Part shown: in pieces, positions 211 to 6,604 of the stretch
Position numbering within the stretch: the first letter of the stretch is position 1
Layout: each line of letters starts with the position of its first letter
Assembly (NCBI GenBank): GCA_001797615.1
Contig: MGPV01000042.1
Span: 1 to 53,428 of the forward strand
Source: Deltaproteobacteria bacterium GWC2_65_14
GTDB lineage: Bacteria > Desulfobacterota > Deferrimicrobia > Deferrimicrobiales > Deferrimicrobiaceae
Length of the DNA: 53,428 nucleotides
Reading direction: 5' to 3'
Notes under the pieces: generated by a model
Database searches by the model: none
Told to the model about the DNA's origin: nothing
What the model saw: the letters and a program-made list of their open reading frames with translations, nothing else
Position numbers and translations under genes: made by a program

Positions 211-312
211 GCGGGAAAACGCCTTCCCCGGGGCCATGGCGCGGGAAACTCATGGACGCAGAGGATTCGCGGGAACGGTCCGCTCCAGCTTCGTTGCGCT
301 CCTTGCGCCGGG

Positions 313-359
313 GGGGGACACTCTTGGTTTTCTCGCTGATCACACAAAGAGTGTCCCCC
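313..359. repeat. 13-bp inverted repeat upstream of rnr
   Basis: GGGGGACACTCTT at 313-325 is exactly complementary to AAGAGTGTCCCCC at 347-359, with a 21-nt loop between. This is the main structure in the 293-bp stretch between tRNA-Leu and rnr, in which I see no gene. The GGGAC...GTCCC ends resemble the repeat cluster at 29948-30260, which suggests a dispersed REP-like element; that link is inference. There is no T-run for a classical terminator. Confidence 0.6.
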
Positions 360-438
360 GCCATCCTCAGTCGCGCGCCTCGCCGGCGCGGCGCATCGAG
401 GCTCTCGGTGCGACACCGTATTTATGAAGCGGAGTACT

Positions 439-452
439 TAGGGACAGCCCTA
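439..452 (+). promoter_or_regulatory. small hairpin over the rnr ribosome-binding site
   Basis: TAGGG (439-443) can pair with CCCTA (448-452) around a 4-nt loop, ending 3 nt before the chosen rnr ATG at 456. The only Shine-Dalgarno-like bases nearby (AGGG) lie in the left arm, so the fold would hide them. This is seen in the sequence; a regulatory role is inferred. Confidence 0.35.
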
Positions 453-455
453 CCG

Positions 456-2684
456 ATGAGGGACAGAAGATTCTGGGAACGGTGGCTCCGGGAGCATGCG
501 GAGACGCTCGCGCCGAAACCCTCCTCGGTGCGGGAATGGTACCGGGCCGCCGGGGTCCGGAAGGGGGAGCGCCGCCACTTCCGGGCGGCCCTGCAGGGGG
601 CCTCCCTGTGGACCTCCCCGCGAAAGCGAGGGAAAGGGCGCAGCCTGCGCGACGGGGAGGAAAAGCCGGGGGGGGGGCATGGAGGCGCGCGTTCCGACGA
701 CACGAGGAGCGAACCGCACGGTCCCCGAAGGGAGGGGAGGCTCCGGTTTACGCGGGAAGGTCGCCCCCTCGTCCTGACGGGCTCTCCGCAGGAGCCTGCG
801 ATCCGGATCCCGGGGAATTCCCTTTCCGGGGCGTGGCCCGGGGACCGGGTGGAGGTGAGGCTGGAAAGAAGGAGAGGGGGCGCCCCTCCGTACGGCCGGG
901 TCGTCCGCATCGTCGAGCGGGGATTCCGGGAGTTCGTGGGACGCTTCACCGCGTCCGGCGATTCCGCGTTCGTCCGGTTCCGCGACCGTGAAGGGGAATT
1001 TCTCGTCCCCGCGACCGTTCCGAACGGTCTGCGGCCGCAGCAGGGGGAGCTGGTCCTCGCGGAGGTATCCGAGTATCCCCGACCCGGAAAGGAAGGAAGG
1101 GCAAGCCTTCTCCGGACCCTGGGGAAGGAGCATACCCTCGAGACGATCGTCCTGTCGGTGGTCTCCGCGAAAGGGGTCCCGTCCCGGTTCCCGGAAGGGG
1201 CCCTGGAGGAGGCGGCGCGCCTGCCCCGATCGGTGCGCCTCCCGCGATCCGGAGGGCGGGAGGCGCCGGGGGAAGTCCGGCGGGTGGACCAGAGGCATCT
1301 GCCCTTTGTGACGATCGACGGGGAGGATGCGCGCGACTTCGACGACGCCGTCTGCATGGTCCGGGAGCGGGGGAGAACCCGCCTTCTGGTGGCGATCGCG
1401 GACGTGTCGCACTATGTTCCCCCGGGGAGCGAGGTCGACCGGGAAGCCTACCGGCGGGGAACCAGCGTGTATTTCCCGGACCGGTGCATCCCCATGCTGC
1501 CGGCCCCGCTGTCCGAGGGGATCTGCAGCCTCAAGCCCGAAGTGAACCGCCTTGCCGTGACGGTGGAGATCCCGATCGGGGAGGGGGGAGAGCCTCTCGC
1601 GGCCTCCTTCTACCCGTCGGTGATCCGCAGCCGGTCCCGGCTCACCTACGCGCGCGTGCATGCCCATCTCGCCGGGGAGGCGTCCGGGCGGAGGGGAGGA
1701 ATCGGGGGCCAGGTCGGGAGGATGCTCCGGGAGATGGAGATCCTCGCCGGCCGGCTCACACGAGCCCGCGCCGGGCGCGGATCCCTGGACCTCGAACTTC
1801 CCGAGACCAGGATCGACGTGGCCGATTCCCTGCCGGTGGGCGTGGTGCACGCGCCCCGCTGGGAGGCCCACCGGATCATCGAGGAGTTCATGCTGCTCGC
1901 GAACGCGGCCGTGGCGGAATTCCTGTCCGCGCGCGGGTTTTCCTTCCTGTTCCGGATCCACGAGCCGCCGGCGGAAGAGCGGGTCGCGGAATTCGAGGAG
2001 ACCGCGGCCAGGCTGCTGCGGCGCTCCCGGGCGACCGGGAGCCGGGAGATTCCCAGGCGCCTCCAGGCCTGGGCCGACGCGGCGAAGGGGGGAAAGTACG
2101 AGAAGCAGGTTCACCTGTCGCTGCTGCGGAGCCTGATGCTCGCCCGGTACGGGCCCGAGGAGAAGGGGCACTTCGGGCTGGCCCTTGCACGCTATGCCCA
2201 TTTCACCTCCCCGATCCGGCGGTACCCCGACCTCGTGGTGCACCGGGTCCTCAAGGCGGCGCTGGGAGATGCGGGGTATCCGGAGTACTCCGGCACGGTT
2301 GCCGCGAAGGGAACGGCGCTTGGCGAGCATCTGAGCGCCCGCGAGCGGGCCGCGATGGAGGCGGAGCGGGACGTCTCCGCCCGCGCGAAAGCGCTCTTTC
2401 TCTCGAAACGGACGGGGGAAACGTTCCCGGGATCGATCGGCTCCGTCACCCGGCACGGGTTTTTCGTGGAACTGGAGGAGATTCCGGTGGAGGGGTACGT
2501 TCCCGTGTCGACTCTCCGGGACGACCTCTACCGGTATTCTCCGGAGCGGGGGGAATGGTACGGGACGGTGCGCGGAACACGGCTTGCGCCCGCGGACCGG
2601 GTCCTGGTCCGCCTGTTCCGGGCGGATCCGGACCGGGGGCAGATCGATTTCCTTTTCGTTGAAAAACTCCCGGAATCCCTCTAG
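456..2684 (+). CDS. rnr: ribonuclease R (RNB family 3'-5' exoribonuclease)
   Basis: A 742-residue hydrolytic 3'-5' exoribonuclease that degrades structured RNA. The N-terminal region is followed by cold-shock-like domains, then the RNB core with the metal-binding aspartate cluster DGEDARDFDDAV near residues 288-299. A C-terminal S1 domain (about 650-735) contains GSIGSVTRHGFFVELEE. I chose the ATG at 456 because the protein there begins with the usual WERWLREHAETL-type segment; an open frame continues upstream to 252 but crosses the hairpin at 313-359 and has no family likeness. The Lys-rich tail of the E. coli enzyme is missing. The stop codon lies inside the -10 of the next gene's promoter. 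Confidence 0.93.
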   Translation: MRDRRFWERWLREHAETLAPKPSSVREWYRAAGVRKGERRHFRAALQGASLWTSPRKRGKGRSLRDGEEKPGGGHGGARSDDTRSEPHGPRREGRLRFTREGRPLVLTGSPQEPAIRIPGNSLSGAWPGDRVEVRLERRRGGAPPYGRVVRIVERGFREFVGRFTASGDSAFVRFRDREGEFLVPATVPNGLRPQQGELVLAEVSEYPRPGKEGRASLLRTLGKEHTLETIVLSVVSAKGVPSRFPEGALEEAARLPRSVRLPRSGGREAPGEVRRVDQRHLPFVTIDGEDARDFDDAVCMVRERGRTRLLVAIADVSHYVPPGSEVDREAYRRGTSVYFPDRCIPMLPAPLSEGICSLKPEVNRLAVTVEIPIGEGGEPLAASFYPSVIRSRSRLTYARVHAHLAGEASGRRGGIGGQVGRMLREMEILAGRLTRARAGRGSLDLELPETRIDVADSLPVGVVHAPRWEAHRIIEEFMLLANAAVAEFLSARGFSFLFRIHEPPAEERVAEFEETAARLLRRSRATGSREIPRRLQAWADAAKGGKYEKQVHLSLLRSLMLARYGPEEKGHFGLALARYAHFTSPIRRYPDLVVHRVLKAALGDAGYPEYSGTVAAKGTALGEHLSARERAAMEAERDVSARAKALFLSKRTGETFPGSIGSVTRHGFFVELEEIPVEGYVPVSTLRDDLYRYSPERGEWYGTVRGTRLAPADRVLVRLFRADPDRGQIDFLFVEKLPESL

Positions 2685-2708: not shown

Positions 2709-3836
2709 ATGGCCAAGAAACTTCTTCTCGCGGAAGACAGCCTGACCATCCAGAAGGTGTTCGCCCTCACCTTCCAACAGTCCGACATCTCGCTGACCAC
2801 GGTGGACAACGGGGAGGATGCCGTACGCCTCGCCGGGGAGATCTCCCCGGACCTCGTGGTCGCCGACGTCACCCTTCCCGACCGGGACGGGTTCGATGTG
2901 GCTACCACGCTGCGCGGCCAGGAGGCGACCCGTTCCTGCCCGATCCTGATCCTCGCCGGAAGCCTTCCCCCGTTCGACGAGGAGAAGTTCCGGAAATGCG
3001 GGGCCGACGGGGTGCTGTTCAAGCCGTTCGAGTCCCAGGAGCTGATCGACAAGGTGGAGGCGCTGCTGCGGAGCGGGGAGGTTCCCGCCGAAGGCCCGAC
3101 GGAAGAGGCGGCTGCGGGCGCGGAGGAACTCTGGGACTTCAGCGACGTCCTGGAGGAGGTGAACGAGGAGACCGGGAAGGGAGCCGCCGCTGCTGCGCCT
3201 ACGGAGAGCCTTCTCCCCGGAGCCGGCGGGATGGCCGGAAAGGGGGAGGAGCTGGGCTCTCTGGAGGAATTCGACGTTTCCCTGGAGGAGATCGCGAGGG
3301 AGGAGGAGCTGGAGTCCGTGCAGGCCGAGGAGGCCGCTCCCGCGGAAGCCGTGGAGGATATCGCCCCGGTGGTCTCCCACGCGGAGGATCTCGCCTACGA
3401 CGATTCTCCCCCCGCGGTGACCGACCTGACCTCCGCGATCGAAGCTGCCGGAGGTTTGCAGATGGAGGAGACGCAGGAGTTTACGGCCGCGACGGAGGAG
3501 GCCGGGCCGGCCGAGGCGCCGGAAACCGCACCGGAGGTCCGGGCGGAGCCCTTCGTTCCGGCGATAACCGCTGTGCAGGCTGCCCCGGAGACGCTCCTTC
3601 CGGCGGAGGACCGGCTCCGGGAGGAATTTTCCGACAGGGCACGGGAGATCCTCGAGCGGGTCGCTGCGGAGACCGTGGAGAAGGTGATGTGGGAGATGAT
3701 GGACCGCCTCTCCGCGGAGATCACGGAGAAGATCCGGGAGGCGGTCGAGGCTGTGGCGTGGGAAGTCATCCCGGCGACCGCGGAGTCGGTGATCCGCGAG
3801 GAGATCGAACGGATCCGCACGAAAACCGGGGAATAA
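2709..3836 (+). CDS. orphan response-regulator-like protein with acidic linker and repeated C-terminal helices
   Basis: A 375-residue protein. Residues 1-118 are a receiver domain: acidic pair E9/D10, phospho-acceptor D53 in VVADVTLPD and conserved K105 in FKPFE. The usual Thr/Ser switch position appears to be A83. Residues about 120-305 form a low-complexity linker rich in Glu, Ala and Pro. The last 60 residues are predicted amphipathic helix with a duplicated motif, VEKVMWE at 323-329 and VEAVAWE at 346-352. There is no DNA-binding or enzymatic output domain, and no histidine kinase nearby. The output is probably a protein-protein interaction, but the function is unknown. It has its own promoter, and valS begins 119 bp downstream. 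Confidence 0.8.
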   Translation: MAKKLLLAEDSLTIQKVFALTFQQSDISLTTVDNGEDAVRLAGEISPDLVVADVTLPDRDGFDVATTLRGQEATRSCPILILAGSLPPFDEEKFRKCGADGVLFKPFESQELIDKVEALLRSGEVPAEGPTEEAAAGAEELWDFSDVLEEVNEETGKGAAAAAPTESLLPGAGGMAGKGEELGSLEEFDVSLEEIAREEELESVQAEEAAPAEAVEDIAPVVSHAEDLAYDDSPPAVTDLTSAIEAAGGLQMEETQEFTAATEEAGPAEAPETAPEVRAEPFVPAITAVQAAPETLLPAEDRLREEFSDRAREILERVAAETVEKVMWEMMDRLSAEITEKIREAVEAVAWEVIPATAESVIREEIERIRTKTGE

Positions 3837-3955: not shown

Positions 3956-6604
3956 ATGGGTTCGCAGGAGCAGGACAAATCGTACGATCCGGCGAAGGCC
4001 GAATCGAAGTGGTATGAGTACTGGATGGAACAGCGGCTGTTCCACGCCGACCCGTCCGGTCCCGGTGAGGCCTACTCGATCGTCATCCCCCCCCCGAACG
4101 TGACCGGTTCCCTCCACATGGGGCACGCGCTGAACGTGACGCTCCAGGATGTCCTGGTGCGGTACCACAGGATGTGCGGGAAAAACACGCTCTGGCTCCC
4201 CGGCACCGACCACGCGGGGATCGCGACGCAGAACGTGGTCGAGCGGCTGCTCGCGCGGGAGGGGGTGGACCGGCAGACGCTGGGGCGCGATCGGTTCGTC
4301 GAGCGGGTATGGCGCTGGAAGGAGGAGAGCGGCGGGGCGATCCTGAACCAGCTTCGTCGGCTGGGGGCCGCGTGCGACTGGGAACGGGAGCGGTTCACCA
4401 TGGACGAGGGGCTGTCCCGCGCGGTCCGCGAGGCCTTCGTCCGGCTCTACCGGAAGGGGCTCGTCTACCGGGGGCGGTACATCATCAACTGGTGTCCCCG
4501 CTGCCGGACCGCGCTCTCCGACCTCGAGGTCGCCTACGAGGAGACGAAGGGCGCCCTCTACTACATCCGGTACCCGGAGCTTTCGGGCCGCCGCAGCGTG
4601 GTGGTGGTCACGACCCGCCCCGAGACGATGCTGGGGGACACCGCGGTGGCGGTGCACCCCAAGGATGAGCGGTACGCGGGCCGGACCGGCGCGACGCTCC
4701 GCCTCCCCCTGATGAACCGCCCGATTCCGCTGCTCGCCGACGAGATGGTCGACCCGGCCTTCGGGACGGGTGCGGTCAAGATCACTCCCGCCCACGACCC
4801 GAACGACTTCGAGGTGGCCCGCCGGCACGAGCTTCCCTCCGTGCAGGTGATCGACGACTCCGGCGTCATGACGAAGGAGGCGGGCCGCTTCTCCGGGATG
4901 GACCGGTTCCGGTGCCGGGAGGCGGTGGTCGAGGCCCTCCGGGCGGAGAACCTCCTGGAGAGGGAGGAGCCCCATCTCCACAACGTCGGGAACTGCTACC
5001 GGTGCAGGACCGTCGTGGAGCCGATGGAGAGCATCCAGTGGTTCGTGAAGACCGCCCCCCTCGCGGAACCGGCCATCCGGGCCGTCCGGTCGGGGGAGAC
5101 CCGGATCGTCCCCGGGAACTGGGAGCGGACCTATTTCGACTGGATGGAGAACATCCGCGACTGGTGCGTCTCCCGGCAGATCTGGTGGGGGCACCGGATC
5201 CCCGCCTTCCACTGCGACGGGTGCGGGCACACGATGGTGGAGACGGACCGCCCGGACCGCTGCTCCTCCTGCGGATCGGGGGAGGTCCGGGAGGAGGAGG
5301 ATGTCCTGGACACCTGGTTCTCCTCCTCGCTCTGGCCCTTCTCCACGATGGGGTGGCCCGACGCCACGGAAGACCTGGAGCGGTACTATCCCACCTCCGC
5401 GCTGGTGACCGGGTTCGACATCCTCTTCTTCTGGGTCGCCCGGATGATGATGATGGGGATCGAGTTCACGGGGAAGGCCCCCTTCCGCGACGTGGTCATC
5501 CACGCCCTCGTGCGGGACGCGAAGGGGGAGAAGATGAGCAAGACCCGGGGGAACGTGATCGATCCCCTCGAGCTGATGGAGCGGTACGGGACCGACGCCT
5601 TCCGGTTCACCCTGCTGGCGATGGCGGTCCAGGGGCGGGACATCCGGATGGCGGACGACCGCCTGGAAGGGTACCGGAACTTCATGAACAAGATCTGGCA
5701 GGCGGGCCGGTTCGTGCGGATGCATGTCGACGGGAACACGTCCCGGGCGCTTCCGGCCGACCTGCCCGACGTGGACCGGTGGATCCTGTCCCGGCTGACG
5801 CGGGCGGTCGACGGGATCCGGAAGGGGATCGAGGAATACCGGTACAACGACGCGGCTTCCGCCTTCTACCAGTTCACCTGGCACGAGTTCTGCGACTGGT
5901 ACCTGGAGATGATCAAGCCCTCCCTCCTGCAGGAGTCGGATCCGGCGGCACGGGAGAGCCAGCGCGCCGTGCTGCTCCACGTCTTCGAGACGCTGCTGGC
6001 GCTGGGGCACCCCTTCATCCCCTACATCACGGAGGAGATCTGGCACCTGCTGCCGGGGGAGCGGAGGAGCCTCCTGGCGCGGTCCTATCCCGAAGCGGAC
6101 CCGGCCGCGGCGGAGGTGGACGTCGAGGAGCGGATGGGGCGGCTGATGGAGATCGTCCGCGCGGTGCGAAACATCCGGAGCGAGCTGAACGTCCCCCCCG
6201 CGAAGAAGGTGGAGATCCGGCTGAAGGGGCGGGCGGAGGAGATGCGTTTCGTCAGGGCCCACGAGGAGATCCTGCTCCGCCTCGCGCGGGCGGGGCGGGT
6301 GGCCTACAAGGACCCCGAATACATCCCCGTCCAGGACGCGACCGCCGTGGTGAACGACATCGAGGTCTGCATCCCGCTGGCGGGGCTGATCGACTTCGGG
6401 CAGGAGGCGCAGCGTCTCCGGAAGGAGATCGACAAGGCCTCCGCGGAACTGTCGGTCGTCGGCGCCAAGCTGGCGAACGAGAAGTTCGTGGAGAACGCCC
6501 CCCCCGACATCGTCGAGGCGCACCACGAGAGGAGGACGGGGCTGGAGGAGAAGATCGCGAAGCTCTCGAAGAATCTCGAGCTGGTGAGCCGGTACCTCGC
6601 ATGA
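3956..6604 (+). CDS. valS: valyl-tRNA synthetase
   Basis: An 882-residue class I enzyme that charges tRNA-Val. The ATP-binding HMGH is seen near residue 55 (PPPNVTGSLHMGHA) and the KMSKT loop near 528. An editing (CP1) domain lies between them. A zinc-ribbon-like CDGC...CSSC pair sits near residues 420-440. The anticodon-binding region is followed by the C-terminal coiled-coil tRNA-binding arm (last about 65 residues, ending in EEKIAKLSKNLELVSRYLA), a ValRS hallmark. The ATG at 3956 places the family's YDPAKAESKWYEYW segment at the N-terminus. The open frame extends far upstream, but that part runs through another gene. The stop overlaps the nadC start by 4 bp (ATGA). Confidence 0.97.
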   Translation: MGSQEQDKSYDPAKAESKWYEYWMEQRLFHADPSGPGEAYSIVIPPPNVTGSLHMGHALNVTLQDVLVRYHRMCGKNTLWLPGTDHAGIATQNVVERLLAREGVDRQTLGRDRFVERVWRWKEESGGAILNQLRRLGAACDWERERFTMDEGLSRAVREAFVRLYRKGLVYRGRYIINWCPRCRTALSDLEVAYEETKGALYYIRYPELSGRRSVVVVTTRPETMLGDTAVAVHPKDERYAGRTGATLRLPLMNRPIPLLADEMVDPAFGTGAVKITPAHDPNDFEVARRHELPSVQVIDDSGVMTKEAGRFSGMDRFRCREAVVEALRAENLLEREEPHLHNVGNCYRCRTVVEPMESIQWFVKTAPLAEPAIRAVRSGETRIVPGNWERTYFDWMENIRDWCVSRQIWWGHRIPAFHCDGCGHTMVETDRPDRCSSCGSGEVREEEDVLDTWFSSSLWPFSTMGWPDATEDLERYYPTSALVTGFDILFFWVARMMMMGIEFTGKAPFRDVVIHALVRDAKGEKMSKTRGNVIDPLELMERYGTDAFRFTLLAMAVQGRDIRMADDRLEGYRNFMNKIWQAGRFVRMHVDGNTSRALPADLPDVDRWILSRLTRAVDGIRKGIEEYRYNDAASAFYQFTWHEFCDWYLEMIKPSLLQESDPAARESQRAVLLHVFETLLALGHPFIPYITEEIWHLLPGERRSLLARSYPEADPAAAEVDVEERMGRLMEIVRAVRNIRSELNVPPAKKVEIRLKGRAEEMRFVRAHEEILLRLARAGRVAYKDPEYIPVQDATAVVNDIEVCIPLAGLIDFGQEAQRLRKEIDKASAELSVVGAKLANEKFVENAPPDIVEAHHERRTGLEEKIAKLSKNLELVSRYLA

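Follow-up and report, generated by a model that had tools for sequence, protein, structure and literature searches.

The window, the whole 53,428-nt stretch of Deltaproteobacteria bacterium GWC2_65_14 analyzed here (contig MGPV01000042.1), carries on its plus strand an open frame for a protein of 375 aa (2709..3836, stop codon included), a homolog of the polarity protein RomR. The gene lies between rnr (252..2684, plus strand) and valS (3956..6604, plus strand). Both neighbors are open frames identified by eye from sequence, rnr as a member of the RNase R family, with a true start probably further in, and valS as a valyl-tRNA synthetase. The order rnr–romR–valS is found in most of the window's family (f1) and in its sister family f2, and the order romR–valS extends to families f13, f15, f24, f32, and f47. 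Unlike Myxococcus xanthus romR, romR of the window's lineage thus adjoins valS and rnr.

Domain architecture of the window protein

The protein opens with a receiver domain (residues 1–121; 2709..3071, plus strand; Pfam PF00072, 6.5e-20), followed by an acidic, mostly disordered linker (residues 122–297; 3072..3599, plus strand) and by RomR-C, predicted to form one helix (residues 298–374/375; 3600..3833, plus strand) and matched by our RomR-C profile, HMM A1. In an AlphaFold2 model of the 375-aa protein built with eight homologs, the receiver was confident over residues 1 to 122 (pLDDT about 93), and the linker was mostly of low confidence (pLDDT <50 at residues 125–141, 152–191, and 207–296). 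Structure prediction of the tail, suggested in an initial annotation made from sequence, gave a single continuous helix over residues 298 to 374 (pLDDT about 78–89). RomR-C has 18 Glu in 78 residues and includes W351 and P355.

The translation confirms D53 and K105 in the receiver and, where the switch Thr/Ser usually stands, A83, with G84–S85 next to it. The initial annotation noted the switch Ala and considered a phosphorylated or a pseudo-receiver. The Ala is no sign of a pseudo-receiver, because a RomR of presumed Myxococcaceae origin shares the same LAGT/LAGS stretch and because changes at D53 of M. xanthus RomR alter reversals (PMC3441718). A catalytic or DNA-binding output domain had been reported as lacking, and searches after the receiver agree: Pfam detected only Response_reg, and no NCBIfam model came near its cutoff. 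Against the tail, Pfam and NCBIfam returned only subthreshold chance matches; RomR-C is a published domain without a Pfam model. Comparison of a tail profile with solved structures yielded nothing beyond methionine synthase and some designed helices (E ≥ 0.15), which we discount as chance helix matches, and the idea of a PopZ-like polar scaffold, raised by a likeness of the end motif, found no support in Pfam.

The linker is as acidic as initially described (~176 aa, 41% Glu plus Ala, net charge −41), but it is not featureless. It contains three conserved short motifs: WDFSDVL (residues 142–148; 3132..3152, plus strand), kept in most f1 and both f2 homologs and absent from the other families checked; EFDVSLEE (residues 187–194; 3267..3290, plus strand), kept in most f1 homologs with the consensus EFDVSxEE; and AVTDL (residues 236–240; 3414..3428, plus strand), kept in part of f1. 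The conservation of these elements in f1, and of part of them in f2, suggests that they may serve as additional docking sites.

RomR homology and the partner genes

In gliding and twitching bacteria, the polarity protein RomR helps to distinguish the front of the cell from its back. It is described as a receiver, a disordered linker, and a Glu-rich C-terminal helix with an invariant Trp and Pro (PMC3441718, PMC10329633), the same order of domains as in the window protein. With a RomR from the Myxococcaceae (L203, membership presumed) as the query, the window protein was the best match in its genome (5.8e-31; next receiver, 8.2e-19) and was alone in giving a second match, in the tail. The two proteins are 46% identical over the receiver, and the match over the tail is 40%. 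Tail matches were obtained in 31 of 59 relatives, mostly from the window's family, in which every homolog uncut by a contig end opens with a receiver. More distant homologs show the three-part layout published for RomR. An HMM search of the tail, also proposed initially, placed RomR-C in 105 of 247 genomes of the phylum and in 170 of the 193 genomes searched in the phylum to which a Myxococcota metagenome-assembled genome (MAG) belongs, where it almost always occurs once per genome. On domain order and sequence match, we assign the protein as a RomR homolog.

In M. xanthus, the roadblock protein MglC is held at nanomolar affinity by the C-terminal helix of RomR, and no complex forms with the W394A variant (PMC12719032). 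MglC in turn bridges to MglB, the GAP of MglA (PMC10329633). Genes for these partners are present in the window's genome, together with pilT (PilT above the cutoff), in line with the polarity or motility setting that had been envisaged. mglB and mglA are adjacent, and their products match the M. xanthus structures PDB 6h5b (MglB, 9.5e-44) and 6h17 (MglA, 1.2e-99). An MglC-like protein is encoded on another contig; by itself it matches M. xanthus MglC (7ct3) over its full length at 1.5e-4, and a profile of proteins from the window's class, constructed with M. xanthus MglC left out, retrieved 7ct3 first among all solved structures (1.2e-11). The protein keeps the RomR-binding K104/R106/R110 patch (K-x-R-x3-R); in the MglB-binding F25/D26/I28 patch, D26 is kept, and the residues at 25 and 28 are Ala and Leu.

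These results bear on the original proposal, in which an orphan pseudo-receiver would dock through its tail to an unknown partner. The lack of any Pfam or NCBIfam model for the tail and the Ala at the switch position would fit such a protein, but RomR is matched in both the receiver and the tail residues, the partner genes are present, D53 and K105 are kept, and the same Ala occurs in a Myxococcaceae RomR. The RomR match has already largely refuted the proposal, which we now consider highly improbable. The idea of a docking module survives, since the tail is most likely a docking tail; its partner would be MglC, which is known and encoded in the genome.

The resemblance to M. xanthus RomR (MXAN_4461) covers the receiver with D53 and Ala at the switch position, the disordered linker, and the Glu-rich C-terminal helix with an E-x-x-x-W-E-V-x-P motif ~25 residues from the C-terminus, and the M. 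xanthus genome likewise encodes mglA, mglB, mglC, and type IV pilus genes. The M. xanthus linker is Pro-rich, whereas that of the window protein is acidic and has three linear motifs of its own. RomRs of Geobacter/Pelobacter, Acidobacteria, Deferribacterales, and Aquificales share the three-part architecture with lineage-specific linkers (PMC3441718). Bdellovibrio bacteriovorus RomR (Bd2761, PMC6428892), likened here by description, is also polar and has a receiver and a conserved C-terminal region, but differs in its partners and in its role in predation.

Two further features of the partner loci were observed. A second MglA-like GTPase (G000 contig C23:30251-30829), 58% identical to the first, is encoded by an open frame of 376 residues that may include an additional domain; many relatives have a comparable second copy. 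The gene that lies directly upstream of mglC, both in the window's genome and in nearly all f1/f2 genomes checked (L089–L106, L108–L113), is the 3-dehydroquinate synthase gene aroB (L052:33-1475, G000 contig C8), whose product has a C-terminal TPR extension (Pfam TPR_19, 2.7e-10). At the f18 and f27 loci (L116 and L118), the aroB part is followed by a separate TPR-like frame and then by mglC. The extension may be a TPR protein that partners with MglC, here fused to an enzyme of metabolism.

The doubled tryptophan motif and its co-distribution with MglC

Two motif copies, VEKVMWE (copy 1, residues 323–329; 3675..3695, plus strand) and VEAVAWE (copy 2, residues 346–352; 3744..3764, plus strand), lie in the helical tail at an offset of exactly 23 residues; the translation and the AlphaFold2 model uphold the initial annotation here. 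Copy 2 contains W351 with E347 (−4), P355 (+4), and E359 (+8). Copy 1 contains W328 with E324 (−4) and K325 (−3), and lacks Pro at +4 and Glu at +8. The presumed Myxococcaceae RomRs end ...DGGEALLREALSKASREVIEKIAWEVVPQLAETIIREELERLIKDRETQH, and counting back from the C-terminus of these tails gives D371, E390, K391, W394, E402, and H420, exactly as numbered in M. xanthus (PMC12719032). The M. xanthus contacts E390, W394, and E402 correspond in copy 2 to E347, W351, and E359, and K391 is replaced by Ala, such that three of four MglC-contact residues are present, including W394, the one shown to be essential. Together with the best match of the window protein to RomR, this agreement in numbering argues that copy 2 (E347, W351, P355, E359) represents the general RomR-C motif. 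M. xanthus RomR has one Trp motif, whereas the window protein has two; the passages of PMC3441718 that name the invariant Trp and Pro of RomR-C make no mention of a doubled motif.

Judged from the window tail alone, the evidence for duplication is weak and modestly above shuffled sequence. The score of the 23-residue self-match was reached at some offset from 15 to 34 in 58 of 10,000 shuffles, and offsets 8 and 31 outscore offset 23 owing to general helix periodicity. The real evidence is conservation. The repeat is present in close homologs, with Trp in both copies in 20 of the 21 tails found in the window's family, and also in both f13 genomes. Duplication is evident in f13, where the copies (LAAETFEKVAWEVVPDLVDRLV / MVKERIEKVAWEVVPDLAERLI) have a mean identity of 13.5 of 22 residues; the corresponding value in the window's family is 6.2 of 22, still above shuffles. 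On the Myxococcota side, all 30 tails read have a single Trp in their last 90 residues. In the f2 homologs (G024 and G025), copy 2 no longer has its Trp (KEVSASVVP and REVAADVVP), but copy 1 does (EKILWEVLP and EKVLWDVIP), and MglC is kept. Conversely, G018 has lost the copy-1 Trp and kept copy 2 and MglC. The copy-1 Trp was counted in register only, leaving out out-of-register W at −14 and −32 (f21, f10, and f43).

Phylogenetic profiling with polarity genes, another of the initial suggestions, showed that the Trp-bearing tail tracks MglC. One set of 247 genomes from the phylum was searched for RomR-C, MglC, and MglA alike, and tails were read in 90 genomes including the window's; the ~15 genomes with the weakest RomR-C matches, none of which has strong MglC, lie outside this set of 90. 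With strong MglC defined as 60 bits or more, a threshold chosen after the scores were seen, it was found in 38 of 45 genomes with an in-register Trp and in 0 of 45 with a Trp-less tail (Fisher 3e-18, although genomes within a family are not independent). Counted by family, the values are 17 of 20 with Trp versus 0 of 19 without; when only proteins in which a receiver was detected are counted, 37 of 43 versus 0 of 17. The association also holds within f27, where four Trp-bearing members have MglC and one Trp-less member does not. Seven Trp-bearing genomes have only weak MglC (four of f23, one each of f46 and f89, and G110, which is 89% complete), and three genomes (G060, G084, and G146) have MglC of at least 60 bits and no RomR-C match. 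In the literature on RomR, mostly open-access papers, we found neither this co-distribution nor a doubled docking motif, and both appear to be new points.

Trp-less RomR-C-like sequence also occurs outside receiver proteins. Six open frames of ~90 to 150 aa without a receiver (L035, L128, L131, L147, L152, and L165), in families without strong MglC, end in such a sequence (e.g., IVERITREMVPEIAERVIREEIEKIK). A 321-residue frame, L175 (G144 contig C6, 15359–18144), has three RomR-C profile matches, of which two or more are clearly copies of the motif without Trp.

A proposed docking model and its alternatives

We consider it very likely that the window protein is the RomR polarity scaffold of an MglA/MglB module, with a tail that docks MglC and a copy 1 that most likely docks too. 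In such a module, the receiver would be the input, presumably controlled by phosphorylation as in M. xanthus. The C-terminal helix would dock MglC, and docked MglC would hold the MglA GAP MglB, thereby placing it at a pole. Copy 2 (W351, P355, E359) would be the general MglC-docking motif, and copy 1 (E324, K325, W328), its in-register duplicate, most likely a dock for MglC as well. Each RomR chain would thus offer two docking sites on one helix; by simple geometry, W328 and W351 lie ~34 Å apart and ~140 degrees around a straight helix. The analysis establishes the homology, the presence of the partner genes, and the shared distribution of Trp and MglC; MglC binding in the source organism, localization at a pole, and simultaneous use of both copies are predictions of the model.

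The missing Pro at +4 and Glu at +8 in copy 1 and the missing Lys at −3 in copy 2 count against the model, as do the Trp-bearing genomes with weak MglC and the three MglC-bearing genomes that gave no RomR-C match. Copy 1 probably docks nonetheless, because f2 has Trp only in copy 1 and yet keeps MglC. With G018, which keeps MglC with copy 2 only, this suggests that each copy seems able to suffice, the main argument for docking by copy 1. A bivalent RomR in the window's lineage and f13, with two MglC-docking motifs per helix and a docking Trp that moves between copies (as in f2), is a reading that we hold tentatively, at slightly under even confidence. Alternatively, only copy 2 might bind MglC, and copy 1 might build or stabilize the RomR oligomer. 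M. xanthus RomR-C is necessary and sufficient for oligomers up to trimers (PMC10329633), copy 1 has neither the Pro nor the +8 Glu, and G018 keeps MglC despite loss of the copy-1 Trp. This division of labor is harder to reconcile with f2, where the sole Trp is that of copy 1 and MglC is kept, and with the E-K-x-x-W core kept in copy 1, whose counterpart in M. xanthus RomR is modeled as facing MglC (PMC12719032); we regard it as a serious possibility that we lean against.

It is improbable, in our estimation, that the tail is instead a generic pole-targeting or self-assembling helix, shared by many proteins and not specific for MglC. The Trp-less motif does end small receiver-free proteins (L035, L128, L131, L147, L152, and L165) and recurs several times in L175, and RomR-C alone targets the pole (PMC3441718, PMC10329633). 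The Trp version, however, follows MglC closely across the phylum (38/45 versus 0/45), and M. xanthus RomR no longer binds MglC once W394 is changed to Ala (PMC12719032).

As a RomR homolog, the protein is largely already explained, and the doubled motif and the co-distribution of Trp with MglC are modest additions. The assignment places a previously unannotated receiver protein, with a tail that has no Pfam model, in the MglA polarity switch of bacteria that are known through metagenome assemblies labeled Deltaproteobacteria. The match between Trp and MglC across a phylum provides an evolutionary test of a docking residue found by mutagenesis in Myxococcus. If RomR is bivalent, two layers of MglC/MglB could assemble on a RomR oligomer. 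RomRs with one motif and with two, both found in nature, lend themselves to studies of how polarity depends on docking valence.
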